Assembly: GCA_027493955.1 (NCBI GenBank)
Contig: JAOSJT010000001.1
Span: forward strand, 4,326,552 to 4,390,551
DNA from: Bacteroidia bacterium
GTDB lineage: Bacteria; Bacteroidota; Ignavibacteria; SZUA-365
Direction of reading: 5' to 3'
DNA: 64,000 nucleotides
A program made the position numbers and the translations under genes. A model generated the notes under the pieces. The model ran no database searches, was not told the origin of the DNA, and was given only the letters and a program-made list of their open reading frames with translations. Below, in pieces: positions 20,692 to 42,867 of this stretch (position 1 is its first letter; each line of letters starts with the position of its first letter).

Positions 20692-22308
20692 ATGCAACGA
20701 TTTGCTACTCTAACTCTTGTCGGTTTCGTCGTGTGCATCGCTTTGCTCGCCGGCTGCGCGGGAAGCGATCCGGCGGATATCGCCCTCGTCACGGGAGGCG
20801 TCGTCGAAAATCTCGGTGAGAACGTCAACTCCGCGTGGGACGATTACGCCCCGGCGGTCACCGCGAACGGGACACTGTTCTTCACCTCACGTCGGCCCAA
20901 TCCCCGCCGTCAGGACTTCATGGATGACGTCTACCGCGTCAACCATATCGAGAGAAACTGGGAAAAACCGGTCTATCTCTCCGAAGTGATCAATACGCCC
21001 GAATCACAGGGTGCGATCTCCATTTCACCCGACGGCCGTACGCTGTACCTCGCTCTCTGCCGCCAGCCCGACGGCTTCGGAAAATGTGACATTTACATTG
21101 CCGAGTGGAACGAGCGCGGCACCGAATGGTCAAAAGCCAGAAATCTCGACAATCCCGAAGGGAAGGACCTTACGCTTACCACCATCGTCGATAATTTCGA
21201 CAAGATCAATACCACGTACTGGGAATCGCAGCCGTCCATCTCCCCGGATGGCCGTACGTTGTACTTCGCGTCCGACAGGCCCGGCGGTTACGGCGGGACC
21301 GATCTCTGGATGTCGCAGAAGCAACTCGACGGAAGCTGGGGACGTCCGGTGAATCTTGGTCCGGATGTGAACACCAAAGGCGAGGAGCGCACACCTTCCA
21401 TCGCGTTTGACGGTCGCACGCTGTATTACGCATCCGATGGCTATCCCGATGGCGAGAATTCAAAAGCGGCAGGTGGTATGGATCTCTATGTCACGCGCGC
21501 GCAGGGGAGCCGTTGGTCGCGTCCCATGAATCTTGGCTATCCGATCAACTCCAAGAATGATGACGTCTTCATTTCGTCTACCCTTTCCGGCGATACGCTC
21601 TACTTCGCATCCAACCGTCCGGGTGGATACGGCGGCTTCGATCTGTATCTCCTGCTCGATCCGCCATTCCCGCCGGATGCCGTCGTCAATATCGTCGGCG
21701 TTGTCACCGACATTGAAACCAGCCGTCCGCTCGCATCCACCCCGATCACTATCGAGGATTATGGAACCGGCGAGATTGTGAACAGATTCCAGAGCCTCGA
21801 AAGCGGGCAGTTCCAGTTCATCGTTCCCGCCGGACGCGAGTATCGCATCAGCGCGGAACAGAAGGGCTATCTGTTCAAATCCGATGTCTTCGAAGTGCCA
21901 GAACTTACCGTGTATCGTCGCCTCGAGAAGAACATTGCTCTCGAACCGATACCGCCCATCGTCACGGTGCCGCCGAAAACAAACCTCACCGTGCTGTTCG
22001 ATTTCGATAAAGCCACATTACGTCCGGAATCCAAGCCGGAACTCGAACGTGCGATCCGCTTTATTCTCCAGAATCCCGGAAGACGCTTCGAAATCTCGGC
22101 GCACACGGATGCTCTCGGTACGGAAGAATACAACCTCGACCTCAGCGAACGCCGCGCGGCCGCCGTACGGAAATACCTCATCGGCAGCGGTGTACCCGAG
22201 GATATCATCGTTTCCAAGGGGTACGGCGAAGCGCAGCCGATCGATGATAACGAAACACCGCAGGGTCGCCAGCGCAACAGGCGTGTGGAACTCTCTGTCA
22301 TCGAGTAA
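20692..22308 (+). CDS. PD40 propeller-OmpA lipoprotein (PorE-like)
   Basis: A 538-aa lipoprotein (signal ends LLAGC). Residues about 45-325 hold PD40/WD40-like propeller blades (SISPDGRTLYLA, SISPDGRTLYFASDRPGGYGG, SIAFDGRTLYYASDG, TLYFASNRPGGYGGFDLYLL). A carboxypeptidase-regulatory-like beta domain is at about 335-405 (IVGVVTDIETSRPLASTPI). The OmpA C-terminal peptidoglycan-binding domain runs from about 420 to 538 (LTVLFDFDKATLRPESKPEL, HTDALGTEEYNLDLSERRA, YGEAQPIDDN, RQRNRRVEL). The order propeller, regulatory domain, OmpA matches PorE of the type IX system except that the TPR part is missing. Placed directly ahead of large sorting-domain proteins, it probably anchors or assists their secretion at the outer membrane. 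Confidence 0.88.
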   Translation: MQRFATLTLVGFVVCIALLAGCAGSDPADIALVTGGVVENLGENVNSAWDDYAPAVTANGTLFFTSRRPNPRRQDFMDDVYRVNHIERNWEKPVYLSEVINTPESQGAISISPDGRTLYLALCRQPDGFGKCDIYIAEWNERGTEWSKARNLDNPEGKDLTLTTIVDNFDKINTTYWESQPSISPDGRTLYFASDRPGGYGGTDLWMSQKQLDGSWGRPVNLGPDVNTKGEERTPSIAFDGRTLYYASDGYPDGENSKAAGGMDLYVTRAQGSRWSRPMNLGYPINSKNDDVFISSTLSGDTLYFASNRPGGYGGFDLYLLLDPPFPPDAVVNIVGVVTDIETSRPLASTPITIEDYGTGEIVNRFQSLESGQFQFIVPAGREYRISAEQKGYLFKSDVFEVPELTVYRRLEKNIALEPIPPIVTVPPKTNLTVLFDFDKATLRPESKPELERAIRFILQNPGRRFEISAHTDALGTEEYNLDLSERRAAAVRKYLIGSGVPEDIIVSKGYGEAQPIDDNETPQGRQRNRRVELSVIE

Positions 22309-22359: not shown

Positions 22360-25300
22360 ATGAACCGTGCGTACTCATCCATTTTTGCCAGAGTCACCAT
22401 GCGGGTGCTCTTCGCGGCTGCGGCACTGCTCCTTTTCCTGCAGTCCGCCGAGGCGCAACCGCAGCTCACGTTCAAGCGCGTGACGGTGAACTGGCCGACG
22501 GTCGAGCTGTATTTTTCGGTCGGTTGCGACGGCAATCCGGCCTACAACATGACGAAACAGGATTTCCGTATCTACGAGAACGGCGTGGAAGTCAAGGACT
22601 TCACGCTGTGGTGTCCGGATCCGACGATACGCTGCGCGATTTCGGTTGCGCTGGTCTTCGACGCCTCCGGTTCCATGAGTGGTTCCGGAACAGCGGGCGC
22701 CAAACAGGCGGGCCACGCGTTCGTGGATCTTATGGACGGGGTGATTGACGAGGCGTCAGTGGTCTGGTTCACGTCGGTGGTGACGGTGTATCAACAGATG
22801 ACGACGAACAAGCCGATGCTGCATTCGGCGGTGGACGCGTTGCCGGCCAGCGGCGCGACGGCGGTGTGGGACGGTATCTACGCTGGTCTGATCGAGCTGA
22901 TCAACAACGGCGTCAACCAGTGCCGCGCGGTGATCGCGATGACGGACGGCGGCGACAATTCCTCGTCGCGCCAACCCGCGGAGATCATCGCGCTGGCGAA
23001 CCGTCACCGCATCCGCATATTCACCATCGGTCTGGGCTCGTCCATCAACAGCGTGGAGCTTGAGCTGATCGCGCAGCTGACGGGCGGCAAGTACTTCCAG
23101 ACGCCGAACGCGGGTCAGCTTGCGGCGATCTACACGGAGATTTCGACGATCATGTTCCAGGGCTTCCAGGAGTGCATCATCACGTACGAGCGGGAATGCG
23201 CGGACGGAAGCCTTCGGACGGTGGAGCTGCAGCTGCGGAACTTCTGCGGCGGAACGGACTCGAAGACGAAGACGTACCGCGCTCCGCTGGATTCGTCGAC
23301 GTTCAAGACGCTGTATATGGAGCTCGGCAAGGGCGAGGGCAAGGGCGGCACGGACATCAAGGTTCCGCTGATGCTGATCACGCCGATCGACGAAGATATG
23401 TTCTATCCATTCCAGTTCACGCTGGAGTTCGATCCCTCGTGCGTGCAGTTCAAGAGCGTGACGACGCCCCCGGGCTCGTTGATCGAAGGTCTTCCGATAT
23501 CGGTGACGCCGGTACCGACGGGCGCGCTGATACAGGTGACGGACCGGAAGCTGGTCAACGGGAGCGGTCTGCTGATGGAGTTTACGTTCAAGGCGTCGGA
23601 TCCCGCCGATACGACGTGCTGCGAGATACGGGGCGTGAACCCGAAATTCGAACAGGGGTGTTTCATCCCGATCATCAACCCCGGCGAGATCTGCGTGTAT
23701 CCGCGCAAGCCGGTGGTGAGCTGCGACATAGACGGCCCGAAGGAACTGGTGTGGATGCGTCCGATCAAGGACTACATGCCGAACCCGTTCTCGGTCAACG
23801 CTCGTTTCTACAACACGGGCGACAAGGAGGCGTTCAATACGCGCTTCAAGATCACGTACAACAGCGCGGACGTTCAGCTGATCACGCCGTTGACGGACGT
23901 TCAGGTGGGTTCGCCGAAGGACATCCCGTCGAACGGTTTCGCGGAGGTGACCTGGCAGCTTGCGGCCAAGCGTCGTTCGAACGAAGTGGAGACGGAGATC
24001 TGCATCACGGCGCTGTTCGACAATCATGAAGAAGTGGTCTGCTGCCTGAAGGTGAAGATTCCGCCGACGGAGCCGATACTCGAGTGCGCTCTGGACGCTC
24101 CTCCGATCGTAGCGGACAATATCAACCTGCGCTACGTGCCGATGCCGTTCCCGGTGACGGTGACGGTAACGAACGTGGGCGGCATGCGTACGGATTCGGT
24201 GTGGGCGACGATCAAGCTTCCGAAGGATCTCGAGCTTGCGGCGCCGGACATCCCGGACCGTCACACGAAGCGCGTGGTTCCGTCGCTGCTGTTCCCGAAT
24301 CAGAGCGGCAGCGCGACGTGGATGGTCAAACATCCGAACACGGACGTCGAGAAGAGCTACATCGTGGAGGTGTGGGTGAAGACGGCGAACGCGGATTCGT
24401 CGAAGTGCGAGATCACGATCGTGATCCCGCCGTTGGATTCGCCGATACTTTCGCCGCGGTGCTACGTTCCGAGCGAACTGGTATTCGACGAAAACCTCGA
24501 CACGTACGTCCCGAACCCGTTCACGGTGCGTCTGACCTGCGTGAACAACGGCAACACGGAGGCGTTTGACGTCGAGGGCACGATCATTCTTCCTCCGGAC
24601 CTGGTGCTCGATCCACCGACGCAGCCGGTGACGAAGATGTTCACGCCGTCGAACATGCTCAAGTATGTTCCGCCGGCACCCGCGCCGGAACTGACGTGGA
24701 CGGTGCGCTGGACGAAGCGGTACCGGTACAACGTGACGCCGCAGATCCGCTGGACGGTGACGGGCAAGAACTTCATGGGGGCGTACGTCTGGACTCGACG
24801 GAAGTGCGCTGCGCGATCCCGATCCCCGGTCTGATGCCGCTGTTCGGCTGCACGATCGAGATGCCGGATTCGCTTGCGCTCAACGCGTCGGAGACGGACG
24901 TCGAGCCGAACCCGTTCACGGTGCGGTACACGATCACGAACAAGAGCAAGCAGATCGGCCGTATCACGCGTCTGTTCATCAGCTTCCCGCCGGACGGTCT
25001 GTCGCTGGATCCGAGTTCGCCGAACCCGATGAACCAGACGATGAGTCTGGATCTGGACAAGGACGAGTTCCGGACGTTCGAGTGGATCATCAAGGTGCAG
25101 AACCGCATCACGCGTCGTCTGCCTCTGATCACGGTGATCGCCTTGGATGACGAAGGCAACGAGATCCGCTGCGAGCAGTATTTGCCGATCGCGAACCTGA
25201 AGACGGCGCTGATGTGCGACGTGCGGACGAGCGAGCCGGAGCTTCGGTACATTCCGGTGCTGACCGAGTACGAACCGAACCGTTTCGTGATCAGCGCGAC

Positions 25301-28252
25301 GCTGACGAACACGGGCGGGGCGAACCTCAACGACATCGTGGCGGAACTGGAGTGGACGGATCCGAGCGGCCAGGATCTGGTGGAGTTCGATCCGGATTAC
25401 GCGGACAACACGAACCCGAAGACGTGGGGCGTGCTGTTCCCGAGCCTGGGTCAGACGTTCACGTGGGGCTTCCGCCTGAAGAACAAGAACACGACGGACG
25501 TACCGCAGGTGCTGACGTTCAACATCAAGTACGGTTCGCGCGAGACGCCGTTCATCGCCGGAGGCTGCGAGGTTCCTGTGACGATCGAACCGGTTGTGGC
25601 TCCGAAGCTGATCTGCAGCCTGGGCGGTCCGGACACGGTGCGCTTCGTGGTGGACCGTTACGAGCCGACGCCGTTCGACATCGATGTGCATATCGAGAAC
25701 ATCGGCACGGGCGACGCGCGCGATGTGAAGGCGTACCTGCTGCAGGATACGCGGTTTACGATCGTCTCACCGACGATGCGTGCTCTCGGGACGCTTGCGG
25801 CGTTTTCGAGCACGGATCTGACGGGCGCGAACGGCTTCACGGTTCGTGTCAATCCGCGCGATGTTGACGGGTACGACACGGTGCGCGTGACGGTGGTTGC
25901 CGAGGGCGCGATGACCGAGTGCCTGCTTCCGATCTATGTCGAGCGCGAACTTCGTCCGCGCTTCGAGCTGGTGTGCACGTCGAGCGCGGTGTTGCGCTTC
26001 GACGATGTGCTCAACGATTACACGCCGAATCCATTCCCCGTGGAGACGCGGGTAAAGAACGTGGGCGACACGCGGGCGAAAGACTGCAAGTTGATCTTCG
26101 TCGGTCCTCCGCGCTTTATGCCGTATGACCAGGTGACGACGATCAGCCTGGGCGACATGGAAGTCAATGAAGAGCGCACGATCACGTGGCAGATGGTGCC
26201 GTGGCGTCGCGACGTGGGCGGCACGGAGACGCTGCTGTTCCAGGTGCACGGATCGGGTGGTCTGGGCAACCGGATCGTGGTCGAGCCGTGCGGTGTGGAC
26301 ATCTATGTACCGCCGGCACGCGCGGCGACGTATGCGTGCGACGTGACGGCGCAGTCGATATCGTTCGATCCGACGACGGGCGGGTATGTCCCCGATCCGT
26401 TCGAGGTGACGTCGACGGTGACGAACACGGGTCTTGCGGACGGTCTTGGCCTGTTCGCGGAGCTGACGGTGGAGAGCGGCCTGTATCTGACCTCGCCGGC
26501 GCGCGTGGACCTTTCCGGGACGCTGAGCCCGAGCGCGACGAGCGCTCCGGTGCGCTGGACGGTACGTCCGATCGCGCGTGCGACGGACGGGAACCTGAAG
26601 GCGACGGTGCGGTACACGGACCGCTTCGGGAACACGGCGTTGTGCGAGACGATGGTCTTCGTTCCCGCGGCACCGGAGCCGGGTCTTCTTCTGGGCTGCA
26701 CGTCGGATCTGGTGAAGCTGGAAGTGGATAAGCTTCGCGGCGAGTACGTGCAATCGACGTTCAATATCCGCGACGGTGGGCAACAACAGCGGCCGTTCGG
26801 TATTCGACGTGGAAGTGACGGCGATCTCGATGGACGCGGATCTGAAGATCTCGCCGTTGTCGCCGAATCCAGTGATCGTTGCTCCGCGTCTGGACCACAA
26901 CGCACCGACGGTGTCGGTGTCGTGGTCGGTGAACGTGGTTCCGCGCTCGAAGAGCGGTCCGATCCAGTGTTGTTCCGGTCACGGGCAAGGACGAGCAGGG
27001 CCGCTCGGTACCGACGCGCGAGTGTTCGGTGTGGATCGACGTTCCCGCGGTGGGCAGCCCCGATCTTCAGTGCGATATCATGACGTCGGTGACGACGCCG
27101 GATCCGAACGATGATCGGATGATCTCGTACAGCGAGTCTCTCGGCGACTATGAAGGCGAGAAGTCGGCGTTCGGCGACTACACGGTGTTCACGGTGAGCG
27201 CGACGATCCAGAATCGTGGCGAGGCGCAGGCGAACCGCGTCCGGGCGACGCTTCTGCTTCCGGAGTACATGGCCCTGGAGGCCGAAGAGAGCGCTCTGAA
27301 GAGCGTGACGCCGAACGACATCGGTCCCGGGAACGGGATAGCGACGGTGAGCTGGAAGGTTCGTCCGCTCGCGGTGGGCGAGGACAAGCCTTTGACGTTC
27401 GAGATCGTGACGACGTCGGAGAATCATCCGCCGGAGAAGTGCACGCATGACGTGACGCTTCAGGCGGCGCAGCGTCTTGTGACGCTCTCGCTTCCGGACG
27501 ACATGGTGGGCAGCTACGGCGAGAAGGTGACGGTACCGGTTCTGGTGGGTGAGACGCTGGGCCGCGATATCTTCGCCTACAAGCTGACGATCCGTTACAA
27601 TCCCTCTCAGATCCGCTTCCTGGACGCGACGAACGCGAACAGCCTGACGGCTCGCGGTTGGAACGGCCCGCAGGCGCGTGTTCTTGTCGAGCAGGGTGCG
27701 CCGGAAGGCAACCTTGTGCGTATCGAGGACCGTACGACGGGTCAGCCGTTGTCGACGAGCCGCACGGGGGCGCTGGTGTTCCTGCGCTTCGAGGTGGTGC
27801 ACAATCCGGAGCAGATCGATCTGGTGGCGCAGTCGCCACTGGAGTTCGTCTCGAACACGCTGACGGACGACAACCGCGATTTGTGGTCGTCGATGAACAG
27901 CGTCAAGGACGAAGAGCAGGGCGATGTGAAGCTGGTGCTGATCAACGGCGCGGTGACGGTGAGCGGCGACTGCGTGCTGCCGCTGACGACGGCGACGCGT
28001 CTGGAGCAGAACCGTCCGAATCCGTTCAACCCGACGACGGTGATCACGTACCGTCTGGGCGAGACGGGCGAATACACTCTGACGCTGTTCGACGCGCTGG
28101 GCCGGAAGGTGCGCGTGCTGGAGACGGGCGTGAAGGCCGCCGGGACGTACACGTACGTACTCGACGCCACGGGCCTGACCAGCGGCGTGTACCTCTACCG
28201 CCTCGACACACCGACCTACAGCGACACCAAGCGCATGATTCTCTCGCGCTAA
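22360..28252 (+). CDS. Giant vWA multi-module surface protein, copy A (frameshifted as sequenced)
   Basis: With the indels corrected it encodes 1964 aa. Order: signal peptide (ending QSAEAQ); vWA domain with MIDAS DASGSMSGS and MTDGGDNSS; a cohesin-like domain (GTDIKVPLMLITPI onward); ten Cys-led modules of about 100 aa, most carrying Y-x-P-x-P-F and N-x-G; a second cohesin-like domain (VTLSLPDDMV onward); and a type IX-like sorting tail (NRPNPFNPTTVITY, SGVYLYRLDTP). Breaks relative to copy B: two extra G near 24777-24781, loss of AC near 26769, loss of G in a CCAGG near 26968 and of T in a CCTGG near 26976. As read it falls into frames 22360-24834, to 27083, and from 27029. An exported adhesin or matrix protein is the best guess. 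GGAG precedes the ATG; the PD40-OmpA gene ends 51 nt upstream. Confidence 0.85.
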
Positions 28253-28289
28253 GACGCGCGGGGATTTCAACCGACCGTAGAATCAGAGC

Positions 28290-28313
28290 GGGAGGCGGCT
28301 GACACCGCCTCCC
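28290..28313 (+). terminator. Hairpin after copy A
   Basis: A 9-bp stem GGGAGGCGG-CTGACA-CCGCCTCCC, 38 nt past the stop. No T-run follows, so it may attenuate or protect the message between copy A and the 907-aa gene rather than end transcription. Confidence 0.4.
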
Positions 28314-28366
28314 CTCGCTACCGAAACCCCGACGGAAGTTGTACATTTTCTCAGGAAGCCGATACC

Positions 28367-31090
28367 ATGATGAAGAGAACAATCCTGCACACAGTCCTGC
28401 TCCTCGCAGTCCTGTTTCCGCCGCTGATGTTTGCTCAAGGGCAGGGTGGGGACGACGCCGTTATGGGGTTACCCGTCATTTCTGTCCGACTCGAGAGCTC
28501 GGCGACGCAGCTATTCTATGTGGACTACGATTATGTCCCGAATCGCATCACGGTGACCGCATGGGTGAAAAACATCAGTGCAGATACCGCGATCGCACGA
28601 AACGTCAACGCGCGCATCATCGCGGACACACGTTTTAATGTGCCTGTGGGAGAGCCGGTTGAAAAACACGTCGCGGATTTCCTGAATCCCGGAGATTCTG
28701 CCTCCGTTACCTACGAGTTGGTCGTGGCCAGCGAACGAAGCGATGATGGAACGGATGATGTCCGTGTGCTCGTTTTCACCGACAATGCCTATGCCAAGGA
28801 TGCGACCATCCCCATCTGGGTTCAACGTGAAATGTTCCCCATACTGCAGAACACCATCGGATCTCTCCCGAGCCTGGTGTTCGACGACAACACCAACGAC
28901 TTCATCCCGAATCCGTTCTGTGTCGATGTCGTGGTGCGAAATACCGGTGAAGGTGTCGCGGATTCCGTGTATATACAGTTCGTCGGTGTGCGGTATGTGA
29001 CCGTGTTCGAGCAAGACTCTTCGATCAAATACCTCGGCGCCATGCGGCCGAATGAAGAGCGGACAGTGCGTTTCTGCTTCCGTCCGGCATGGCGGACCTT
29101 CGACACCACCGTAACCCTGAAATTCCAGACACACGGCATCGGTGGCTACAAGCGGAAGAAATACATCCAAGCCGACAGCGTTTCCATGTTCCTCCCCGCT
29201 GCGAAGCAGGCCGCGTATCAGGTTGTCTGTAACATCGTCCCGAGTTTCATAGAGTTCAAGGACCATCGCTACAATCCGGATCCCTTCGACTATACTGTGC
29301 AAATCACGAACGTCGGCACGGCGGTAGGCAAAGGTGTGAAAGCAAAACTGCAGTTTACGGGTTTCACACTCAATAGCGGAGAGAGCGAGGAAAAGGATCT
29401 CGGCGACATCGGCTTGGGACAGACGGTGAACGTGAGCTGGAAACTGAAGCCCACGAGACTGTTTGAACGGGATACCTTGTTCATCTGTGTCCGCGTCTAT
29501 GACATTTTCAACAACAACGCGGTCTGTTGCGACAGTGTTATCGTAGACTCAATACGCACCGCGCGCTTCGACGTCGCATGCACTGGTCCCGATACAATCA
29601 GGGCTGATAATCAGGCGGGCGTGTATCTCAACAATCCCTTCGACGTGGAATTCACAGTCTGCAATATCGGCAGCGATTACGCGGATTCGCTGAAAGCCAC
29701 GATATTCATCCAAAGTCCGAATGTCACTCCGATACCCGGCTTCCCGAATGTCATCGAAAAGGCTATTGTGTCCGGTACAGACTCGCTCGGAGTTGATAGC
29801 TGCTACACATTCCGGTGGACATTGGAAGCATTGCCTATGGCTGTGACAACCCCGGTGCGCATCAAGTTCACTGCGCAGGCACTCAATGCCGAGCCGCGGG
29901 AGTGCGAGATCGTCGTGATCGTCCAGAGACTTGATGCTCCAAATCTGGATATTACTTGTGGAACCATACCTGAGGATACTGTTAACTTCGATCCAAGCAG
30001 TGGGGGATATTTCCCACCCTACATCATTTACTGGGCTGTCGTGAAAAACATTGGTGGAGGGATCGCAAAGAACGTTTCAGTAACACTAGCCCCTCCACCT
30101 AGGACACAGTTGGCAGACGGTGAGACTTGGACCAAACTTGCAAACCCCAAGGATCTCGGACCGAATGACTCCGCAAGAATTGAGTGGATCACCGTTCCGG
30201 TGAGACGCACGGATTTCGGAAGCAATATAACTTATCGGGCAGAAGTCACATCAGAGAACGTCGTTGAGCGTCCGGTGTGCAGCGCGGATGTCTTTGTGCC
30301 TGCTCTGCCGAAAACGGCCGCTTTCTCCATACCTTCCAACAACGTAGGCTACACCAATCAGCTCATCATGGTGCCGATTTTCATCGATGATCCGACGGAC
30401 AAGGACATCAAGAAAATCGAAATCAAGCTGCACTACAACATTGACGACAACCGTAACAGACGGCCGCTCGATGTGGTCGAGTTCCTCGAAATCGTGCAGT
30501 TCAATTCGCTGACGGAGGGATGGAACATCCTGAATCAGGGACGGAACGCTTCGAACGACGTGCTGCAATTCACGATACAGAGCACTTCCCAGCTCGCATA
30601 CCCTGACAATGTGGCGCCGGAGTTCATTCCACCCCTCATCTGGCTGAAATTCCGCGCGGCCTTTGGCAGCAGTCCCGACGATCTCGACATCGAGCGCACT
30701 CCGGTCCTCTGGCCCGATCCTCTTGTCATTCAGTCGGAAGTGGTGATCAACGACGGTTCCATTTTCCCGCTCGTGACGCCGGGTGAGGTTTGGGTGAGCG
30801 GCGACTGTCTCCGTCCTCTCACAGCTTCGCCGGATTACATCATATTCAACCGGCCGAATCCTTTCAATCCGAGCACCACGTTCGAATACCATATCCCGGT
30901 GGACGAGCATGTGAAAATCGTTGTTTTTGATGCACTCGGACGCGAAGTTCGTACCCTCGTGAATGATTACAGAACCGCGGGTTACCACTCCCTGGTCTTC
31001 AATGCCGATGGACTACCCAGCGGCATCTATTTCTACCGACTTGAAACGCCATCATTCTCCACAATGAAGAAAATGGTGATTTCCAAGTAA
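28367..31090 (+). CDS. Modular secreted surface protein with sorting domain (no vWA)
   Basis: A 907-aa relative of its neighbours. A signal peptide (TVLLLAVLFPPLMFAQ) is followed directly by five modules with the same Y-x-P-x-P-F/N-x-G pattern (YDYVPNRI, NDFIPNPF, RYNPDPF, GVYLNNPF, GGYFPP), each with paired cysteines. A cohesin-like domain (TAAFSIPSNNVGYTNQLIMV onward) and the NRPNPFNPSTTFEY sorting tail follow. Codon use is mixed, unlike the monotone copies A and B, so it has not been homogenised with them. AGGAAG precedes the ATG. It closes the operon that starts at 19869 and is followed by a clear terminator. Expected location: cell surface or extracellular. Confidence 0.85.
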   Translation: MMKRTILHTVLLLAVLFPPLMFAQGQGGDDAVMGLPVISVRLESSATQLFYVDYDYVPNRITVTAWVKNISADTAIARNVNARIIADTRFNVPVGEPVEKHVADFLNPGDSASVTYELVVASERSDDGTDDVRVLVFTDNAYAKDATIPIWVQREMFPILQNTIGSLPSLVFDDNTNDFIPNPFCVDVVVRNTGEGVADSVYIQFVGVRYVTVFEQDSSIKYLGAMRPNEERTVRFCFRPAWRTFDTTVTLKFQTHGIGGYKRKKYIQADSVSMFLPAAKQAAYQVVCNIVPSFIEFKDHRYNPDPFDYTVQITNVGTAVGKGVKAKLQFTGFTLNSGESEEKDLGDIGLGQTVNVSWKLKPTRLFERDTLFICVRVYDIFNNNAVCCDSVIVDSIRTARFDVACTGPDTIRADNQAGVYLNNPFDVEFTVCNIGSDYADSLKATIFIQSPNVTPIPGFPNVIEKAIVSGTDSLGVDSCYTFRWTLEALPMAVTTPVRIKFTAQALNAEPRECEIVVIVQRLDAPNLDITCGTIPEDTVNFDPSSGGYFPPYIIYWAVVKNIGGGIAKNVSVTLAPPPRTQLADGETWTKLANPKDLGPNDSARIEWITVPVRRTDFGSNITYRAEVTSENVVERPVCSADVFVPALPKTAAFSIPSNNVGYTNQLIMVPIFIDDPTDKDIKKIEIKLHYNIDDNRNRRPLDVVEFLEIVQFNSLTEGWNILNQGRNASNDVLQFTIQSTSQLAYPDNVAPEFIPPLIWLKFRAAFGSSPDDLDIERTPVLWPDPLVIQSEVVINDGSIFPLVTPGEVWVSGDCLRPLTASPDYIIFNRPNPFNPSTTFEYHIPVDEHVKIVVFDALGREVRTLVNDYRTAGYHSLVFNADGLPSGIYFYRLETPSFSTMKKMVISK

Positions 31091-31113
31091 TCACATCCCG
31101 AGACAGTGATTTG

Positions 31114-31146
31114 AGTCCGGTCAGCAATGGCCGGACTTTTTTTTTT
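31114..31146 (+). terminator. Rho-independent terminator of the surface operon
   Basis: Stem AGTCCGG (31114-31120) with CCGGACT (31131-31137), a 10-nt loop, then ten T, 24 nt after the stop of the 907-aa gene. Confidence 0.88.
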
Positions 31147-31658
31147 CGTGGTCAGGGAAAAGCCCGCCCAAAACCCATCTCCCCGGCAATCGATCAGGGA
31201 AGCCGTGGAGCAGAGGAGTATGGAGAAATTCCGTGCTGGTAAGAGGGAATGATGTACTTGCCTGACGCAGATCACATGCCTCCGTGTGTTCATCTGCCCC
31301 CGTTTTCGTGCGTAAAGCCGATGAGCGGTCTCCCAGGCAGACCGACAGGATAGTTGCGATTCAGGGCGAAAGTCCACATGTTCGCTGCCTCGATTCGAAC
31401 CATGGTGTACAGGCTCCTTCTTGTCACATCGGGTGATGTGGCCGGGAGGCCACCGTTCAAGGGCTGCGCCGACATGTCATTTTTGCTCGTCATGGCGGTG
31501 CTTGCTTGGAGACGACTCCGGAGGTACGAATGTCCCACCGGATGAAACATCTCGAATTGCATCGTGAGAGCCCCTTTTTCATGATACCGGGAGAAAATGG
31601 AAGCAGCGCGGAGAGAGCGTTGCGGGTTGAAAAAAAAACTCAAAAACACGCGATTGCC

Positions 31659-31699
31659 CCTGTAACTTTTAGTCACTTCATGTGTTATTCAAGTTACAG
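31659..31699 (+). promoter_or_regulatory. Conserved upstream element with 9-bp inverted repeat
   Basis: CTGTAACTT (31660-31668) pairs with AAGTTACAG (31691-31699). The left half, CCTGTAACTTTTA then TTCATG and TTATT, recurs ahead of the shortened paralogue at 37859-37893. The whole 31147-31888 gap has no supported gene; this element and the promoter at 31775 are the only signals I see in it. Confidence 0.55.
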
Positions 31700-31774
31700 T
31701 GCCGAAGAATTTCGCATGTTCGGCCTTGGCATCCCGGACACCCGACGTGGTCATACCACCCAGCCCATAAATAA

Positions 31775-31807
31775 TTGACCTGCGTTTTCGGTGTGAATAT
31801 ATTTCAC
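31775..31807 (+). promoter_or_regulatory. Sigma70-like promoter of copy B with operator-like inverted repeat
   Basis: TTGACC (31775-31780), a 17-nt spacer and TATATT (31798-31803). GTGAA-TATAT-TTCAC (31793-31807) overlaps the -10, similar to the inverted repeat at 19704. The leader to the ATG is about 80 nt and ends in CAGGAGCC. Confidence 0.65.
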
Positions 31808-31888
31808 TTTAAATTGTTTCTTATGTATCTTTCGCCTAGATGAAACATTGATACAACTTTTTACTACAGACATACACAGGAGCCAAAC

Positions 31889-34800
31889 ATGAAAGTTGCG
31901 AACGAAGTCCGCACACTGTCGCGTATCGCGCTATGGGCGATGCTCGCGCTGTTTGCGTTCGGATCGGTTGCCGAGGCGCAACCGCAGCTGACGTTCAAAC
32001 GCGTGACGGTGAACTGGCCGACGGTCGAGCTGTATTTCTCGGTCGGCTGCGACGGTAATCCGGCCTACAACATGACGAAGCAGGATTTCCGTATTTACGA
32101 GAACGGCGTGGAAGTCAAGGACTTCACGCTGTGGTGTCCGGATCCGACGATACGCTGCGCGATTTCGGTTGCGCTGGTCTTCGACGCGTCCGGTTCCATG
32201 ATTGGCTCCGGAACAGCGGGCGCCAAACAGGCGGGCCACGCGTTCGTGGATCTCATGGACGGCGTCATTGACGAGGCGACTATTGTCTGGTTCACGTCGG
32301 TGGTGACGGTGTATCAACAGATGACGACGAACAAGCCGATGTTGCATTCGGCGGTGGACGCGTTGCCGGCCAGCGGCGCGACGGCGGTGTGGGACGGTAT
32401 CTACGCGGGTCTGATCGAGCTGATCAACAACGGCGTCAACCAGTGCCGCGCGGTGATCGCGATGACGGACGGCGGCGACAATTCCTCGTCGCGTCAACCC
32501 GCGGAGATCATCGCGCTGGCGAACCGCCACCGCATCCGCATATTCACTATCGGTCTGGGCTCGGCGATCAACAGCGTGGAGCTTGAGCTGATCGCGCAGC
32601 TGACGGGCGGCAAGTACTTCCAGACGCCGAACGCGGGTCAGCTCGCGGCGATCTACACGGAGATTTCGACGATCATGTTCCAGGGCTTCCAGGAGTGCAT
32701 CATCACGTACGAGCGGGAATGCGCGGACGGAAGCCTTCGGACGGTGGAGCTGCAGCTGCGGAACTTCTGCGGCGGAACGGACTCGAAGACGAAGACGTAC
32801 CGCGCTCCGCTGGATTCGTCGACGTTCAAGTCGCTTTACATGGAGCTGGGCCGGGGCGAGGGCAAGGGCGGCACGGACATCAAGGTTCCGCTGATGCTGA
32901 TCACGCCGATCGACGAAGAGATGTTCTATCCGTTCCAGTTCACGCTGGAGTTCGATCCCTCGTGCGTGCAGTTCAAGAGCGTGACGACGCCCCCGGGCTC
33001 GTTGATCGAAGGTCTTCCGATATCGGTGACGCCGGTACCGACGGGCGCGCTGATACAGGTGACAGACCGGAAGCTGGTCAACGGAAGCGGTCTGCTGATG
33101 GAGTTTACGTTCAAGGCGTCGGATCCCGCCGATACGACGTGCTGCGAGATACGGGGCGTGAACCCGAAATTCGAACAGGGGTGTTTCATCCCGATCATCA
33201 ACCCCGGCGAGATCTGCGTGTATCCGCGCAAGCCGGTGGTGAGCTGCGACATAGACGGCCCGAAGGAACTGGTGTGGATGCGTCCGATCAAGGACTACAT
33301 GCCGAACCCGTTCTCGGTCAACGCTCGTTTCTACAACACGGGCGACAAGGAGGCGTTCAATACGCGCTTCAAGATCACGTACAACAGCGCGGACGTTCAG
33401 CTGATCACGCCGTTGACGGACGTTCAGGTGGGTTCGCCGAAGGACATCCCGTCGAACGGTTTCGCGGAGGTGACCTGGCAGCTTGCGGCCAAGCGTCGTT
33501 CGAACGAAGTGGAGACGGAGATCTGCATCACGGCGCTGTTCGACAATCATGAAGAAGTGGTCTGCTGCCTGAAGGTGAAGATTCCGCCGACGGAGCCGAT
33601 ACTCGAGTGCGCTCTGGACGCTCCTCCGATCGTAGCGGACAATATCAACCTGCGCTACGTGCCGATGCCGTTCCCGGTGACGGTGACGGTAACGAACGTG
33701 GGCGGCATGCGTACGGATTCGGTGTGGGCGACGATCAAGCTTCCGAAGGATCTCGAGCTTGCGGCGCCGGACATCCCGGACCGTCACACGAAGCGCGTGG
33801 TTCCGTCGCTGCTGTTCCCGAATCAGAGCGGCAGCGCGACGTGGATGGTCAAACATCCGAACACGGACGTCGAGAAGAGCTACATCGTGGAGGTGTGGGT
33901 GAAGACGGCGAACGCGGATTCGTCGAAGTGCGAGATCACGATCGTGATCCCGCCGTTGGATTCGCCGATACTTTCGCCGCGGTGCTACGTTCCGAGCGAA
34001 CTGGTATTCGACGAAAACCTCGACACGTACGTCCCGAACCCGTTCACGGTGCGTCTGACCTGCGTGAACAACGGCAACACGGAGGCGTTCGACGTCGAGG
34101 GCACGATCATTCTTCCTCCGGACCTGGTGCTCGATCCACCGACGCAGCCGGTGACGAAGATGTTCACGCCGTCGAACATGCTCAAGTATGTTCCGCCGGC
34201 ACCCGCGCCGGAACTGACGTGGACGGTGCGCTGGACGAAGCGGTACCGGTACAACGTGACGCCGCAGATCCGCTGGACGGTGACGGGCAAGAACTTCATG
34301 GGCGTACGTCTGGACTCGACGGAAGTGCGCTGCGCGATCCCGATCCCCGGTCTGATGCCGCTGTTCGGCTGCACGATCGAGATGCCGGATTCGCTTGCGC
34401 TCAACGCGTCGGAGACGGACGTCGAGCCGAACCCGTTCACGGTGCGGTACACGATCACGAACAAGAGCAAGCAGATCGGCCGTATCACGCGTCTGTTCAT
34501 CAGCTTCCCGCCGGACGGTCTGTCGCTGGATCCGAGTTCGCCGAACCCGATGAACCAGACGATGAGTCTGGATCTGGACAAGGACGAGTTCCGGACGTTC
34601 GAGTGGATCATCAAGGTGCAGAACCGCATCACGCGTCGTCTGCCTCTGATCACGGTGATCGCCTTGGATGACGAAGGCAACGAGATCCGCTGCGAGCAGT
34701 ATTTGCCGATCGCGAACCTGAAGACGGCGCTGATGTGCGACGTGCGGACGAGCGAGCCGGAGCTTCGGTACATTCCGGTGCTGACCGAGTACGAACCGAA

Positions 34801-37776
34801 CCGTTTCGTGATCAGCGCGACGCTGACGAACACGGGCGGGGCGAACCTCAACGACATCGTGGCGGAACTGGAGTGGACGGATCCGAGCGGCCGAGGATCT
34901 GGTGGAGTTCGATCCGGATTACGCGGACAACACGAACCCGAAGACGTGGGGCGTGCTGTTCCCGAGCCTGGGTCAGACGTTCACGTGGGGCTTCCGCCTG
35001 AAGAACAAGAACACGACGGACGTACCGCAGGTGCTGACGTTCAACATCAAGTACGGTTCGCGCGAGACGCCGTTCATCGCCGGAGGCTGCGAGGTTCCTG
35101 TGACGATCGAACCGGTTGTGGCTCCGAAGCTGATCTGCAGCTGGGCGGTCCGGACACGGTGCGCTTCGTGGTGGACCGTTACGAGCCGACGCCGTTCGAC
35201 ATCGATGTGCATATCGAGAACATCGGCACGGGCGACGCGCGCGATGTGAAGGCGTACCTGCTGCAGGATACGCGGTTTACGATCGTCTCACCGACGATGC
35301 GTGCTCTCGGGACGCTTGCGGCGTTTTCGAGCACGGATCTGACGGGCGCGAACGGCTTCACGGTTCGTGTCAATCCGCGCGATGTTGACGGGTACGACAC
35401 GGTGCGCGTGACGGTGGTTGCCGAGGGCGCGATGACCGAGTGCCTGCTTCCGATCTATGTCGAGCGCGAACTTCGTCCGCGCTTCGAGCTGGTGTGCACG
35501 TCGAGCGCGGTGTTGCGCTTCGACGATGTGCTCAACGATTACACGCCGAATCCATTCCCCGTGGAGACGCGGGTAAAGAACGTGGGCGACACGCGGGCGA
35601 AAGACTGCAAGTTGATCTTCGTCGGTCCTCCGCGCTTTATGCCGTATGACCAGGTGACGACGATCAGCCTGGGCGACATGGAAGTCAATGAAGAGCGCAC
35701 GATCACGTGGCAGATGGTGCCGTGGCGTCGCGACGTGGGCGGCACGGAGACGCTGCTGTTCCAGGTGCACGGATCGGGTGTCTGGGCAACCGGATCGTGG
35801 TCGAGCCGTGCGGTGTGGACATCTATGTACCGCCGGCACGCGCGGCGACGTATGCGTGCGACGTGACGGCGCAGTCGATATCGTTCGATCCGACGACGGG
35901 CGGGTATGTCCCCGATCCGTTCGAGGTGACGTCGACGGTGACGAACACGGGTCTTGCGGACGGTCTTGGCCTGTTCGCGGAGCTGACGGTGGAGAGCGGC
36001 CTGTATCTGACCTCGCCGGCGCGCGTGGACCTTTCCGGGACGCTGAGCCCGAGCGCGACGAGCGCTCCGGTGCGCTGGACGGTACGTCCGATCGCGCGTG
36101 CGACGGACGGGAACCTGAAGGCGACGGTGCGGTACACGGACCGCTTCGGGAACACGGCGTTGTGCGAGACGATGGTCTTCGTTCCCGCGGCACCGGAGCC
36201 GGGTCTTCTTCTGGGCTGCACGTCGGATCTGGTGAAGCTGGAAGTGGATAAGCTTCGCGGCGAGTACGTGCAATCGACGTTCAATATCCACGCGACGGTG
36301 GGCAACAACAGCGGCCGTTCGGTATTCGACGTGGAAGTGACGGCGATCTCGATGGACGCGGATCTGAAGATCTCGCCGTTGTCGCCGAATCCAGTGATCG
36401 TTGCTCCGCGTCTGGACCACAACGCACCGACGGTGTCGGTGTCGTGGTCGGTGAACGTGGTTCCGCGCTCGAAGAGCGGTCCGATCCAGGTGTTGTTCCT
36501 GGTCACGGGCAAGGACGAGCAGGGCCGCTCGGTACCGACGCGCGAGTGTTCGGTGTGGATCGACGTTCCCGCGGTGGGCAGCCCCGATCTTCAGTGCGAT
36601 ATCATGACGTCGGTGACGACGCCGGATCCGAACGATGATCGGATGATCTCGTACAGCGAGTCTCTCGGCGACTATGAAGGCGAGAAGTCGGCGTTCGGCG
36701 ACTACACGGTGTTCACGGTGAGCGCGACGATCCAGAATCGTGGCGAGGCGCAGGCGAACCGCGTCCGGGCGACGCTTCTGCTTCCGGAGTACATGGCCCT
36801 GGAGGCCGAAGAGAGCGCTCTGAAGAGCGTGACGCCGAACGACATCGGTCCCGGGAACGGGATAGCGACGGTGAGCTGGAAGGTTCGTCCGCTCGCGGTG
36901 GGCGAGGACAAGCCTTTGACGTTCGAGATCGTGACGACGTCGGAGAATCATCCGCCGGAGAAGTGCACGCATGACGTGACGCTTCAGGCGGCGCAGCGTC
37001 TTGTGACGCTCTCGCTTCCGGACGACATGGTGGGCAGCTACGGCGAGAAGGTGACGGTACCGGTTCTGGTGGGTGAGACGCTGGGCCGCGATATCTTCGC
37101 CTACAAGCTGACGATCCGTTACAATCCCTCTCAGATCCGCTTCCTGGACGCGACGAACGCGAACAGCCTGACGGCTCGCGGTTGGAACGGCCCGCAGGCG
37201 CGTGTTCTTGTCGAGCAGGGTGCGCCGGAAGGCAACCTTGTGCGTATCGAGGACCGTACGACGGGTCAGCCGTTGTCGACGAGCCGCACGGGGGCGCTGG
37301 TGTTCCTGCGCTTCGAGGTGGTGCACAATCCGGAGCAGATCGATCTGGTGGCGCAGTCGCCACTGGAGTTCGTCTCGAACACGCTGACGGACGACAACCG
37401 CGATTTGTGGTCGTCGATGAACAGCGTCAAGGACGAAGAGCAGGGCGATGTGAAGCTGGTGCTGATCAACGGCGCGGTGACGGTGAGCGGCGACTGCGTG
37501 CTGCCGCTGACGACGGCGACGCGTCTGGAGCAGAACCGTCCGAATCCGTTCAACCCGACGACGGTGATCACGTACCGTCTGGGCGAGACGGGCGAATACA
37601 CTCTGACGCTGTTCGACGCGCTGGGCCGGAAGGTGCGCGTGCTGGAGACGGGCGTGAAGGCCGCCGGGACGTACACGTACGTACTCGACGCCACGGGCCT
37701 GACCAGCGGCGTGTACCTCTACCGCCTCGACACACCGACCTACAGCGACACCAAGCGCATGATTCTCTCGCGCTAA
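31889..37776 (+). CDS. Giant vWA multi-module surface protein, copy B (frameshifted as sequenced)
   Basis: With indels corrected, 1962 aa and colinear with copy A from AQPQLTF to the end. The signal peptide differs (ALWAMLALFAFGSVAEAQ) and is 2 aa shorter. Same plan: vWA with MIDAS DASGSMIGS, cohesin-like, ten Cys-led modules, second cohesin-like domain, sorting tail. Breaks relative to A: an extra G at 34893 in a CCAGG, a missing C near 35141 in a CCTGG (about 83 residues between them read out of frame), and a missing G near 35780. As read the frames are 31889-35866 and 35707-37776. Almost all Thr codons are ACG. It has its own promoter and terminator. Sequence identity with copy A stops about nine nt after the stop codon. 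Confidence 0.85.
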
Positions 37777-37804
37777 GACGCGAAAACTGTTCAACCCATA
37801 GCAA

Positions 37805-37838
37805 GCCCGGGCCCGCGTACGCGGGTCCGGGCGTTTTT
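37805..37838 (+). terminator. Rho-independent terminator of copy B
   Basis: A 12-bp stem (left arm 37805-37816 GCCCGGGCCCGC, loop GTAC, right arm 37821-37832) with one G-U pair, followed by five T, 28 nt after the stop. Confidence 0.9.
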
Positions 37839-37968: not shown

Positions 37969-39957
37969 ATGCAAGGCAGAAATGGAAGCATCAGAATGTC
38001 GCGATTCGTGTTGCGGGCTTTGCTCGGATCGATTATGATCTGTTCGACAGCGTATGCGCAGCCAACGCTGAATTTCAAACGCGTGATAGTGAACTGGCCG
38101 ACGATCGAGCTGTACTTCTCGGTCGCCTGCGACGGAAGTCCGGCGTACACCATGACGCAGCAGCATTTCCGCGTTTACGAGGAGGGCTCTGAGATACAGG
38201 ACTTTACGCTCTGGTGCCCCGATCCGACGGATCGTTGTGCCGTGTCCGTGGCGATGGTCATGGATGCATCCGCTTCGATGAGTGCAACGTGGAGGCCGAG
38301 CGTAAAGACCGCAGGTCATGCGTTTGTAGACCTGCTGGATGGTGTCGTTGATGAGGCTGCCATCGTGTTTTTCAATCAAACAGTGGAAGTCCGGCAGCAA
38401 ATGACGACGAACAAACCGATGCTGCACTCGGCGGTAGACGCATTGTACGCCTCCGGCATCGCTGCTTCAATGGATGGCATACATGCGGGAGTGCTTGAGG
38501 TGATAAACAGGGGAGTGAATCCCTGCCGTGCCGTTATCGCGCTGACTGATGGTTATGAACGGATTTCGACGCATACCGCGGCGGAGATAATCGATCTGGC
38601 GAATCGTCATCGCATCAAGGTGTTCGCCATCGGTTATGGTAACGATATCAACAGACAGCTACTCCAGACGATAGCGCTGCAAACGGGTGGCAGGTACTAC
38701 GAGACACCGACCGTCGGACAGCTTGCGGCGATCTACCTTGAAATCTCGACGATACTGTTTCAGCAGTTTCAGGAATGTCTTATCACGTATCAGGGGCAGT
38801 GCGCCGACAGCAGCAGTAGGACAGTGGAGTTGTCGTTACTGAATTTCTGCGGAGGAGACGATGCCGCGAGTAAAGGTTATACAGCGCCCTTGCTCTCGCC
38901 CAGACTCTTCCCGCGCGATTACGTGCCCAACGAACTGGTGTTCGTTGACAGCGCCAACACCTATGTACCAAATCCGTTTTCCGTGCGACTGACCTGCACG
39001 AACCAGAGTGTGGAGGTCGCGACCGATGTGGAGGGGAGCATTATTCTTCCTGATGGTCTGGAGCTTGATCCGCCGGGACAACCGGTGAGAAAGCTGTTCA
39101 CCCCGTCAACAATGAAACAATACACTTCACCCGACCCGATCCCGGAATTGCTCTGGACGGTGCGGTGGACGAGGCGAAACCGGTACGACGTGAATCCGCA
39201 GATCAGGTTCACGGTAACGGGGAAGGACTGTCGCAGTGTGCAGATTGATTCAACCGAGGTCAGGTCTACCATCCCTATAAAGGGGGTGTATCCGAGCTTC
39301 GTCTGCGATGCCTTCGACTTGCCGGATTCCCTTGCGCTCAATGCCGCCGGGACCGATGTGGAGCCGAATCCGTTTACCGTGAGATTCACGATAAAGAACA
39401 AGGGGAATAACGTCGGCCGCATCACACGTCTGTTTATCAGTTTTCCGAGCACAGATGGTTTGTCCCTGGATCCGAGCTCGCCGAACCCGATGAACCAGAC
39501 GATGAATCTTGAGCTGGACAGGGACGAATCGCGGACGTTCGAATGGATGGTCAAGGTGGAGAAGCGTATCACGCGCCGTGTGCCGATGATAACAGTGGTC
39601 GCTCTCGATGACGAGGGGAATGAAATACGCTGCGAGGACCTGCTCCCGATTGCCGGCGTGGGGACGGTCGGCAGCGGAAGCGTCCCCTTGCCCACCGCGA
39701 CGCGTCTGGAACAAAATCGCCCCAATCCCTTCAATCCGACGACGACGATTGAGTATCACCTCGGCGAAGCGGGCGAGTACTCGCTGACGCTGTATGACGC
39801 GTTGGGTCGCATGCTGCGCGTGCTCGACTCCGGATACAAGCCGGCCGGGACGCATAGCTACGTTCTCGATGCGTCGGATCTGCCCAGCGGTGTGTATCTC
39901 TACAAGCTGGAGACGGCTGGGTTCAGCGAGACGAAACGCATGATATTTGCACGCTAG
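37969..39957 (+). CDS. Shortened vWA surface protein with sorting domain
   Basis: 662 aa, intact. Signal peptide (ending STAYAQ), vWA with MIDAS DASASMS and ALTDGYE, then only two Cys/Y-x-P-x-P-F modules (NTYVPNPF, TDVEPNPF) and the NRPNPFNPTTTIEYH sorting tail. These two modules correspond to modules 3 and 4 of the long copies; both cohesin-like domains and modules 1-2 and 5-10 are missing. It is clearly diverged in sequence, so it arose earlier than the A/B homogenisation. GGAG precedes the ATG at good spacing. It is probably exported through the same route and may offer a short version of the same surface function. Confidence 0.88.
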   Translation: MQGRNGSIRMSRFVLRALLGSIMICSTAYAQPTLNFKRVIVNWPTIELYFSVACDGSPAYTMTQQHFRVYEEGSEIQDFTLWCPDPTDRCAVSVAMVMDASASMSATWRPSVKTAGHAFVDLLDGVVDEAAIVFFNQTVEVRQQMTTNKPMLHSAVDALYASGIAASMDGIHAGVLEVINRGVNPCRAVIALTDGYERISTHTAAEIIDLANRHRIKVFAIGYGNDINRQLLQTIALQTGGRYYETPTVGQLAAIYLEISTILFQQFQECLITYQGQCADSSSRTVELSLLNFCGGDDAASKGYTAPLLSPRLFPRDYVPNELVFVDSANTYVPNPFSVRLTCTNQSVEVATDVEGSIILPDGLELDPPGQPVRKLFTPSTMKQYTSPDPIPELLWTVRWTRRNRYDVNPQIRFTVTGKDCRSVQIDSTEVRSTIPIKGVYPSFVCDAFDLPDSLALNAAGTDVEPNPFTVRFTIKNKGNNVGRITRLFISFPSTDGLSLDPSSPNPMNQTMNLELDRDESRTFEWMVKVEKRITRRVPMITVVALDDEGNEIRCEDLLPIAGVGTVGSGSVPLPTATRLEQNRPNPFNPTTTIEYHLGEAGEYSLTLYDALGRMLRVLDSGYKPAGTHSYVLDASDLPSGVYLYKLETAGFSETKRMIFAR

Positions 39958-40942: not shown

Positions 40943-42118
40943 TTATTCCTTGCGCAGTGCGTCGGCCTTCTCATAGGCTTCGGCAGCTTCTTTGGTCATC
41001 CCAACGGATGCGTAAACGCGCCCTGCGAGATCCCAGTTTCCCGCGACCTCTGGTTGCAGTGTGAGAAGCTGCTGGAGATAGGGCACACCCTTGCGGATAA
41101 TTTCCTTGTATTCGTCAGATGCTGTCTCAACGTCCGTGGACTGATTTGCATCACGAACGCTTATACCCCAGCGAAGGTAGGCAACCACCATATTGTACAG
41201 AGCGCTGGAGTTCTTTGCGTCAAGCTGAATTGCACGCCCCAGAAACTTCGTCGCGTCTTCATACTGACTGACTTGCAGCATGGCGGTTCCGGCGGCATAC
41301 TGTGCGCTTCCGTCAGACGCATTCTTTTCCGCATAGTCTTTGAACTTCGTCACGGCTTCCGTCACACGGTCTGCGGCGATATACGCGTTGAGGAGCTCGT
41401 TATTCAGCTCGCTGCTCTCTGGGAATTTGACGACGGCGTCATTGAGCAGGGTGATGACTTCGTTATACTTGGCTTTCGCGCCTTCGGCGTTGCCGGCATT
41501 TTTCAGCTCGTTGCCTTTGAGGGTATGAAGCTGTGCAAGGGCGCTGTACGCGTCGGCATTCGGATTGCGCTTGATCTGCTCGTTGAGGGGTGCCAGGGCG
41601 TCATCGGCTTTTCCCGCGCCCATGAGAGCGAACGCGTGGTAAATGTAGGCGTTGTGCCGTGCGGAGCTGTCCGGTTCGAGCAGGGTCGCCGCTTTGAAGG
41701 CGTCAGCCGCTTCGAGATACAGCTTTTCGTCCTTCCGTATCTGTGCGCGCTTGAGAGAGTTTGCGCCGTGGTTGAAGGCCTGGCCCCAGAAGTAGTAGGA
41801 ATTCTGGTCAATGTCAGTGGTTTTACCGAACTGACGCGCCTTTTGCCAGGATTGCTGGAGGGCCATGTATTGCTTTTTCTCGCCCTGAATGATGCCCAGC
41901 CAGTACCAGCCTTCGGCACTGTTCGGTTTCTCCGTCACTTCTTTCTGGAATGCCGCAAGGGCCTGATCGAGCTTTTCTTCGCTTTTATTCGATTGATACT
42001 GCTGATAGTACAGCTTGCCGCTGGTGACATTCGGTGATGAACACTGGAAACCCATGGTGGTGAATGCGATTACGATGATCGCAAACAATACGACCATGGG
42101 GGAATAACGGTGCTTCAT
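40943..42118 (-). CDS. TPR-repeat envelope protein
   Basis: A 391-aa protein with an N-terminal hydrophobic signal (MVVLFAIIVIAFTTMGFQC; the Cys could be an atypical lipobox) and several TPR units (AEGWYWLGIIQGEKKQY, AYIYHAFALMGAGKADDAL, AQYAAGTAMLQVSQYEDAT, WDLAGRVYASVGMTKEAAEA). TPR arrays mediate protein contacts, here probably at the inner face of the outer membrane. The frame stays open into the upstream tandem repeat, but the ATG at 42118 has GAGGA at good spacing and begins the signal peptide. DUF3467 follows in the same operon. Confidence 0.82.
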   Translation of the reverse strand: MKHRYSPMVVLFAIIVIAFTTMGFQCSSPNVTSGKLYYQQYQSNKSEEKLDQALAAFQKEVTEKPNSAEGWYWLGIIQGEKKQYMALQQSWQKARQFGKTTDIDQNSYYFWGQAFNHGANSLKRAQIRKDEKLYLEAADAFKAATLLEPDSSARHNAYIYHAFALMGAGKADDALAPLNEQIKRNPNADAYSALAQLHTLKGNELKNAGNAEGAKAKYNEVITLLNDAVVKFPESSELNNELLNAYIAADRVTEAVTKFKDYAEKNASDGSAQYAAGTAMLQVSQYEDATKFLGRAIQLDAKNSSALYNMVVAYLRWGISVRDANQSTDVETASDEYKEIIRKGVPYLQQLLTLQPEVAGNWDLAGRVYASVGMTKEAAEAYEKADALRKE

Positions 42119-42246
42119 GGTATCCTCATGTGGTAGATCTTTGGAAGAGCTGTTCCTCCGGACATTCTCAAAGTTACCGATTCGCTCCGGTAAAGGCAAG
42201 GGAATTACCATTGCAGGCGCCTGAAACCCATTGCATGACAGATACT

Positions 42247-42740
42247 CCGCCTCAATCCGTGACATCCGCGTACCCCATCCGCAGATTGGGCGATACATGA
42301 ATCGCCCAATTCTGGAAGCAGCGGCGGCGCCCGGCGTTTTCTTCGATAAAAGCGCCGCGAAAATCCGCCTCAATCCGTGACATCCGCGTACCCCATCCGC
42401 AGATTGGGCGATACATGAATCGCCCATTTTGGAAGCAGCGGCTGCGCCCGGCGTTTCCTTCGAGTAAAGCGCCGCGAAAATCCGCCTCAATCCGTGACAT
42501 CCGCGTACCCCATCTGCAGATTGGGCGATACATGAATCGCCCAATTCTGGAAACAGCGGCTGCGCCCGGCGTTTCCTTCGAGTAAAGCGCCGCGAAAATC
42601 CGCCTCAATCCGTGACATCCGCGTACCCCATCCGCAGATTGGGCGATACATGAATCGCCCTATTCTGGAAGCAGCGGCGGCGCCCGGCGTTTCCTTCGAG
42701 TAAAGCGCCGCGAAAATCCGCTTTAATCCGTCTGATCCCC
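42247..42740. repeat. 118-bp tandem repeat, four units plus a partial one
   Basis: Units start at 42247, 42365, 42482 and 42600 and fade at 42718. Each contains two hairpins: ATTGGGCGAT-ACATGA-ATCGCCCAAT, a 10-bp stem, and GCGGCGC ... GCGCCGC around a T/A-rich loop. Units differ at a few bases only. The array fills the gap between the divergent TPR and rel genes. The open frames through it arise because the unit length is close to a multiple of three; there is no start or codon bias. Confidence 0.9.
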
Positions 42741-42867
42741 GCTCCAATCCTGCAAACTTGCATCGAATATTCGGTCCAAGTGTACGGTACGTGCGCGCGC
42801 TGCGTGTACGGGATTTCTACCCTTGTTTTCTGCACTCCATCGTCTATATTACAGGATTAGGTGCGCA

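Follow-up and report, generated by a model that had tools for sequence, protein, structure and literature searches.

The 64,000-nucleotide (nt) stretch analyzed here (the window; Bacteroidia bacterium, assembly GCA_027493955.1, contig JAOSJT010000001.1, positions 4,326,552 to 4,390,551, from a genome held in a single contig of 5.24 Mb) carries two direct copies, A and B, of a 5.9-kb gene, which lie in the same orientation 9.5 kb apart and each encode a secreted protein of about 1930–1960 residues with a von Willebrand factor A (vWA) domain. Comparison of the copies with each other and with their counterparts in related genomes suggests, at a probability that we put at roughly 0.86, that the locus evolves in concert through recurrent gene conversion between old positional paralogues and does not reflect a recent duplication, because the signal peptides group by position and the mature sequence by species. 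The first-pass annotation of this DNA had proposed repeated gene conversion, and this proposal is supported by the finding that A and B are positional orthologues in sister genera and locally identical within species. Homogenization of the pair has apparently gone on for a long time, both here and in no fewer than three related species.

Aligned over 22447–28258 and 31970–37782, the two copies differ by 36 substitutions, which bears out their earlier description as near-identical surface-protein genes. Thirty-five of these fall within the first 1116 nt of the mature coding part (22447–23562) and the last lies at 24567, so that the remaining 3.69 kb (24568–28258) is free of substitutions; the alignment thus reproduces the first-pass count of about 35 changes in the first 1.1 kb and one thereafter. 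The spread had been called uneven, and a uniform rate is indeed excluded (P = 2e-24 for 35 of 36 substitutions in the first 1116 nt and P about 6e-15 for the substitution-free gap). The 5′ block, which contains the vWA domain, has a synonymous divergence (dS) of 0.107 and a nonsynonymous divergence (dN) of 0.0095 (dN/dS 0.09); from the end of this block to 24774, dS is 0.0035 and dN is 0. On these values the vWA end is read as older and under purifying selection rather than diversified, and diversifying selection on it is rejected.

The homology between A and B sets in precisely at the mature N-terminus and, as had been noted, runs slightly beyond the stop codon, although by 6 nt and not nine. 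Signal peptides and upstream regions differ between the copies, again in agreement with the earlier description, and the flanks are not alignable: over 400 nt on either side, the longest common word measures 8 nt upstream and 10 nt downstream. The genome has about twenty further vWA paralogues, the closest being 66% identical to A and B in amino acid sequence, and among the paralogue loci compared in this genome no second pair approaches the similarity of A and B.

Sister loci were compared in eleven genomes of the same family, carrying the labels Ignavibacteria or Bacteroidetes metagenome-assembled genomes (MAGs; GTDB contigs), with none of the same genus among those searched; the present genome is designated G000, and gene order in the sister loci was pieced together from contigs. 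The order OmpA gene, A, mid907 (the 907-residue gene between the copies), B, and further on the TPR gene and RelA is conserved across genera. Orthologues of the OmpA gene in g3/g4 are full-length and 86–90% identical in amino acid sequence, and A follows wherever the contig reaches far enough (in G009 and G011 it ends inside the OmpA gene). The links OmpA gene to A and mid907 to B are both found in G002, G005, G006, G007, and G008, and the TPR gene and RelA lie on the downstream side of B in the sister genomes. Orthologues of mid907 are 52–57% identical in amino acid sequence in g3/g4 and about 41–43% in g2/g5. In seven of the eleven sister genomes, mid907 sits on an island contig of 3349–4665 nt, with the tail of A upstream in all seven and a recognizable head of B downstream in six; the contig of G004 ends at the B start codon region. 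Even the assembly of G006, in only 30 contigs, has a mid907 contig of 3.3 kb.

Across species the signal peptides group by position, A with A and B with B, the true labeling being the best of 330 permutations. Over the first ∼115 nt of the mature sequence, A and B are 95–100% identical within species (G000, G005, G007, and, for 55 nt only, G006), and the same stretch is 61–92% identical between species. Orthologues of A differ by roughly 10–20% of nucleotides between genera g1, g3, and g4.

The sister assemblies break inside A and B in a regular manner. Contigs with the A head and the B head end flush in an identical 144 nt in G002, 141 nt in G005, and 115 nt in G007, and in shorter shared ends in G006 (55 nt) and G004 (77 nt); contigs with the two tails begin flush with an identical 144 nt in G002 and 141 nt in G005, and those of G007 share 84 nt. 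The shared sequence starts with the mature N-terminus in three species (G005, G006, and G007), near residue 260 in G002, and ahead of the start codon in G004, and it stops 0 nt (G002, G005), up to 8 nt (G007), or, in the present genome, 6 nt after the stop codon. We read these shared ends as repeat nodes of short-read assembly graphs, the contigs breaking at A and B because the interiors of the two genes are indistinguishable. A collapsed interior contig was sought in the G002 bin, and none was found.

In the published survey of concerted evolution (PMC6053082), the process is recognized by paralogues that are closer within a species than orthologues are, together with shared synteny across species and copies that group by species in a tree of full-length genes, and is called recurrent when it occurs in at least five species of one order. 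Closer copies within the species are found here in G000, G005, G006, and G007 but not for the vWA start of G002, and synteny is shared, both in the links to the OmpA gene and mid907 and in the sorting of the signal peptides by position. By species, the case for A and B is strong in G000, G002, G005, and G007, weaker in G006 and G004 (a one-sided or short shared end), and only suggestive in G008 and G011.

Under the proposed mechanism, A and B would be old positional paralogues that predate the split of the sister genera and are recurrently homogenized by gene conversion, presumably of the RecA type, between the two direct repeats. The conversion tracts would end where homology ends, at the signal peptide or leader on one side and at the stop codon on the other, because the flanks are too diverged to pair. 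In the present genome an older conversion would have spanned the mature gene in full, and a recent one no less than its last 3.7 kb, blocks of different age implying at least two events.

Several points weigh against this interpretation. The interiors of A and B are unassembled in the sister species, so that identity there is judged from the two ends. The A and B contig ends of G008 share no stretch longer than 14 nt, and a third paralogue with short shared vWA stretches could cause some of the contig breaks. In G002, A and B are only 72–78% identical over most of the vWA region (∼22% divergent; 71.7% at the start), which indicates that homogenization does not always span the whole gene, and the B heads of G008 and G011 are unlike the known A heads. 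The vWA heads of these three species may reflect either a modular arrangement with two tips on one stalk or incomplete conversion. The suggestion in the first-pass annotation that the vWA end is allowed to vary therefore holds in part: it fits G002, G008, and G011, but the dN/dS of 0.09 and the identity of the copies from the mature N-terminus in G005 and G007 speak against it.

Two further observations concern the vWA end. On contig C121 of G002 (L074:1-960), the A signal peptide and the mature start lie in different frames just past the cleavage site, through a small deletion or an assembly error. In G003, the vWA part of the A gene (L056:3182-4027) and a paralogue from a different contig (L053:6773-7618) have 87.9% nucleotide identity along 848 nt, and the match ends where the vWA part does; a vWA segment may have been exchanged among unlinked paralogues.

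It had also been expected that crossing over between A and B would delete mid907. Such a deletion could occur in principle, but the seven sister genomes with an island contig, and G001 as well, retain the gene. It was not found in the MAGs G003, G009, and G010, where the contig breaks are still present; since the breaks persist, loss of the small contig in binning is more likely than deletion. G001 has A and mid907 with no B alongside, and its other full-length copy, located elsewhere in that genome, reaches no more than 77% nucleotide identity. In G012, from another family of the same order, mid907 directly follows the OmpA gene with no A between (L108:6832-11316).

Among the alternatives, antigenic or phase variation, with A and B as expressed locus and donor cassette and the vWA end as the variable tip, is given slightly more weight than the others, yet we consider it improbable. 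The vWA protein is surface-exposed, the vWA region diverges in G000 and G002, G008 and G011 have distinct B-type heads, and G003 has the 88% vWA stretch common to unlinked paralogues, all of which such a system could explain. Each copy, however, is equipped with its own start codon, signal peptide, and secretion tail, the vWA changes are mostly synonymous, no cassette array, silent cassettes, or switch repeats were seen, no other paralogue in the genome exceeds 66% amino acid identity, and in G005 and G007 the identity of the copies begins at the mature N-terminus. The proposal of phase or antigenic variation in the first-pass annotation is thus left without support.

Slightly less probable still is a recent segmental duplication in this lineage, with the 5′ divergence acquired by later recombination with a relative. 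It would account for the near-100% identity over 4.7 kb, and the sister genera offer no closer paralogue that could serve as an outgroup at the DNA level. A duplication would not be expected to break precisely where the mature protein begins and immediately beyond the stop codon, nor would identical end points be expected to recur in other species, and the sister genera already have mid907 and B-position genes with B-type signal peptides. Recent duplication is rejected on the conserved synteny and the position-specific signal peptides.

An artefact of assembly or polishing, in which the true copies are more different (or B is chimeric) and the consensus was homogenized, is given the same low weight as duplication. 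As deposited, both copies lack an intact open frame: seven indel sites (24777–26976 in A coordinates), all in the substitution-free part, separate the two, four of them splitting A into three frames and three splitting B into two, and at each site the other copy keeps the reading frame. Repeats defeat short-read polishing as reads map to the error-free copy (PMC8812927); complementary indels are the expected outcome, and the seven unrepaired sites indicate that the region went unpolished. No single-copy gene in the window is split, and where such genes have orthologues in the sister loci, the alignment stays in one frame. The frameshifts are thus probably unpolished long-read errors and not biology, and real pseudogenization is rejected, given seven indel sites beside no substitutions, an intact counterpart each time, and unsplit single-copy genes. 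Such errors would hardly produce the identity itself: long reads err mostly by indels, A and B are set apart by 36 real substitutions and by unrelated flanks, and short-read assemblies made independently for other species are interrupted at these same gene boundaries, with ends that are shared exactly. That purifying or codon selection alone keeps the copies alike, a reading to which the low dN lends itself, is barely credible beside 0 synonymous changes over 3.7 kb next to a dS of 0.107 in the adjoining 1.1 kb, and A orthologues roughly 10–20% apart between g1, g3, and g4.

Features of the A/B locus, in window coordinates
Feature	Coordinates	Strand	Remarks
OmpA gene (PD40/OmpA-family)	20692..22308	+	Pfam PD40 and OmpA; 51 nt before A start; positional anchor of A
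Copy A	22360..28252	+	Signal peptide, vWA, cohesin-like, Ig/CARDB-like modules, second cohesin-like, T9SS C-terminal tail
Copy A signal peptide	22360-22446	+	
Tract in A homologous to B	22447..28258	+	Mature N-terminus to 6 nt past stop codon
Older sub-tract in A	22447..23562	+	35 substitutions versus B; dS 0.107, dN 0.0095
Youngest sub-tract in A	24568..28258	+	0 substitutions, 7 indel sites versus B
mid907 (907-residue CARDB-module secreted protein, T9SS tail)	28367..31090	+	Pfam CARDB and Por_Secre_tail; between A and B
Terminator-like hairpin and T-run directly 3′ of mid907	31113..31138	+	Separates OmpA-A-mid907 unit from B
Sigma-70-like promoter match upstream of B (TTGACC-17-TATATT)	31775..31803	+	Consensus match only
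Copy B	31889..37776	+	Signal peptide unlike that of A, same mature protein
Copy B signal peptide	31889-31969	+	
Tract in B homologous to A	31970..37782	+	
Terminator-like hairpin 3′ of B	37805..37832	+	
Third, shorter vWA paralogue (662 residues)	37969..39957	+	70–74% nt identity to A/B in parts; not homogenized
TPR-type gene	40943..42127	-	Positional anchor downstream of B; adjoins RelA (42823-45150)

The start of A is 51 nt past the OmpA gene and its end 114 nt short of mid907, and B starts 798 nt after mid907, with a promoter-like site and a terminator-like hairpin of its own, both recognized as consensus matches; the hairpin after mid907 occurs at the same place in G002, G005, G007, and G011. 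Because A belongs to an operon-like unit with the OmpA gene and mid907, and B is preceded by a terminator-like hairpin and a promoter-like site of its own, the same mature protein is very likely made from two transcription units, presumably expressed separately, with two signal peptides. The two copies may serve dosage, expression under two conditions, or the supply of identical subunits of one structure. We would suggest only tentatively that selection maintains one mature protein with two leaders: conversion would keep the exported part identical between the signal-peptidase site and the stop codon, the distinct signal peptides and units (OmpA operon and stand-alone unit) would allow different expression or timing of export, and B could be exempt at its vWA tip in certain species, giving two tips on a common stalk.

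Pfam assigns to A and B a vWA domain (PF00092, 9e-10), cohesin-like and CARDB/DUF11-like modules, and a Por_Secre_tail of the type IX secretion system (T9SS; PF18962, 1.4e-6 in the C-terminal part of B, A having the same tail). The metal ion-dependent adhesion site (MIDAS) motif (DxSxS) reads D-A-S-G-S-M and is kept in relatives. SprA, the T9SS component tested, is present in the genome as one gene (SprA_N 188 bits over the cut-off). With N-terminal signal peptides, as read from the sequence, the Por_Secre_tail, and SprA in the genome, the product has the marks of a predicted T9SS substrate. An AlphaFold2 model of the 694 N-terminal mature residues of B (mean pLDDT, the per-residue model confidence, 82.6) reveals an alternating α/β vWA fold followed by β domains, for which Foldseek returned integrin headpieces with an inserted vWA domain, the pilus adhesins Mfa5 and SpaC, and cohesin modules. 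Judged by its domains, the product probably serves as an adhesin or as an extracellular scaffold.

Turnover affects the segment from B to the TPR gene, in which the paralogue that follows B differs by lineage: a 662-residue vWA gene here (37969–39957), two other module genes in g3 genomes (L111, L090). Between the TPR gene and RelA, a 118-bp tandem repeat occurs four times (42246–42731; 95% matches). A GC-rich repeat family (CCCGGGC cores, 7-bp CTTCACC/GGTGAAG runs) is present in inverted orientation at 13193–13785 and 57142–57860, the latter near an open reading frame (55838–56719, minus strand) that reads like an IS3-type transposase.

The structural matches recall the vWA pilus tip adhesins Mfa5 of Porphyromonas gingivalis and SpaC of L. 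rhamnosus, which likewise carry a vWA domain on Ig-like modules; it is chiefly the vWA and Ig folds that are alike (TM-scores about 0.2, 8–11% identity), and no pilus genes were identified here. A further related case is that of the adhesin genes rgpA, kgp, and hagA of P. gingivalis (PMC5266723), which share with A and B a T9SS-type C-terminal signal and long stretches identical between genes at which short-read assemblies break. Those stretches are domain arrays within otherwise different proteins, shuffled between strains, whereas A and B are whole positional orthologues homogenized end to end. Short-read MAGs lose precisely such homogenized genes, a blind spot that leaves a trace of its own: an island contig that overlaps other contigs by one k-mer at its ends, by which more cases could be found without long reads.

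Prokaryotic protein genes rarely show lasting concerted evolution, the survey listing 26 genes, mostly for translation, energy, and metabolic enzymes, together with flagellin (PMC6053082); our literature search on concerted evolution of adhesins in metagenomes found none. The flagellin (fla) genes of Alteromonadales (PMC6053082) are, like A and B, paralogues for a surface structure that are kept alike, but they encode a filament subunit and not a T9SS vWA multi-domain protein, and in a different lineage. The nearest precedent is tufA/tufB, encoding EF-Tu (PMC5485169, PMC6053082), also a near-identical gene pair in separate transcription units, with its coding sequence homogenized by conversion and its synteny long conserved. 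Unlike tufA/tufB, A and B encode a 5.9-kb secreted surface protein, form direct repeats only 9.5 kb apart, leave their signal peptides outside the tract, and would undergo conversion in uncultured Ignavibacteria-related genera. The pair would thus extend concerted evolution to giant surface proteins.

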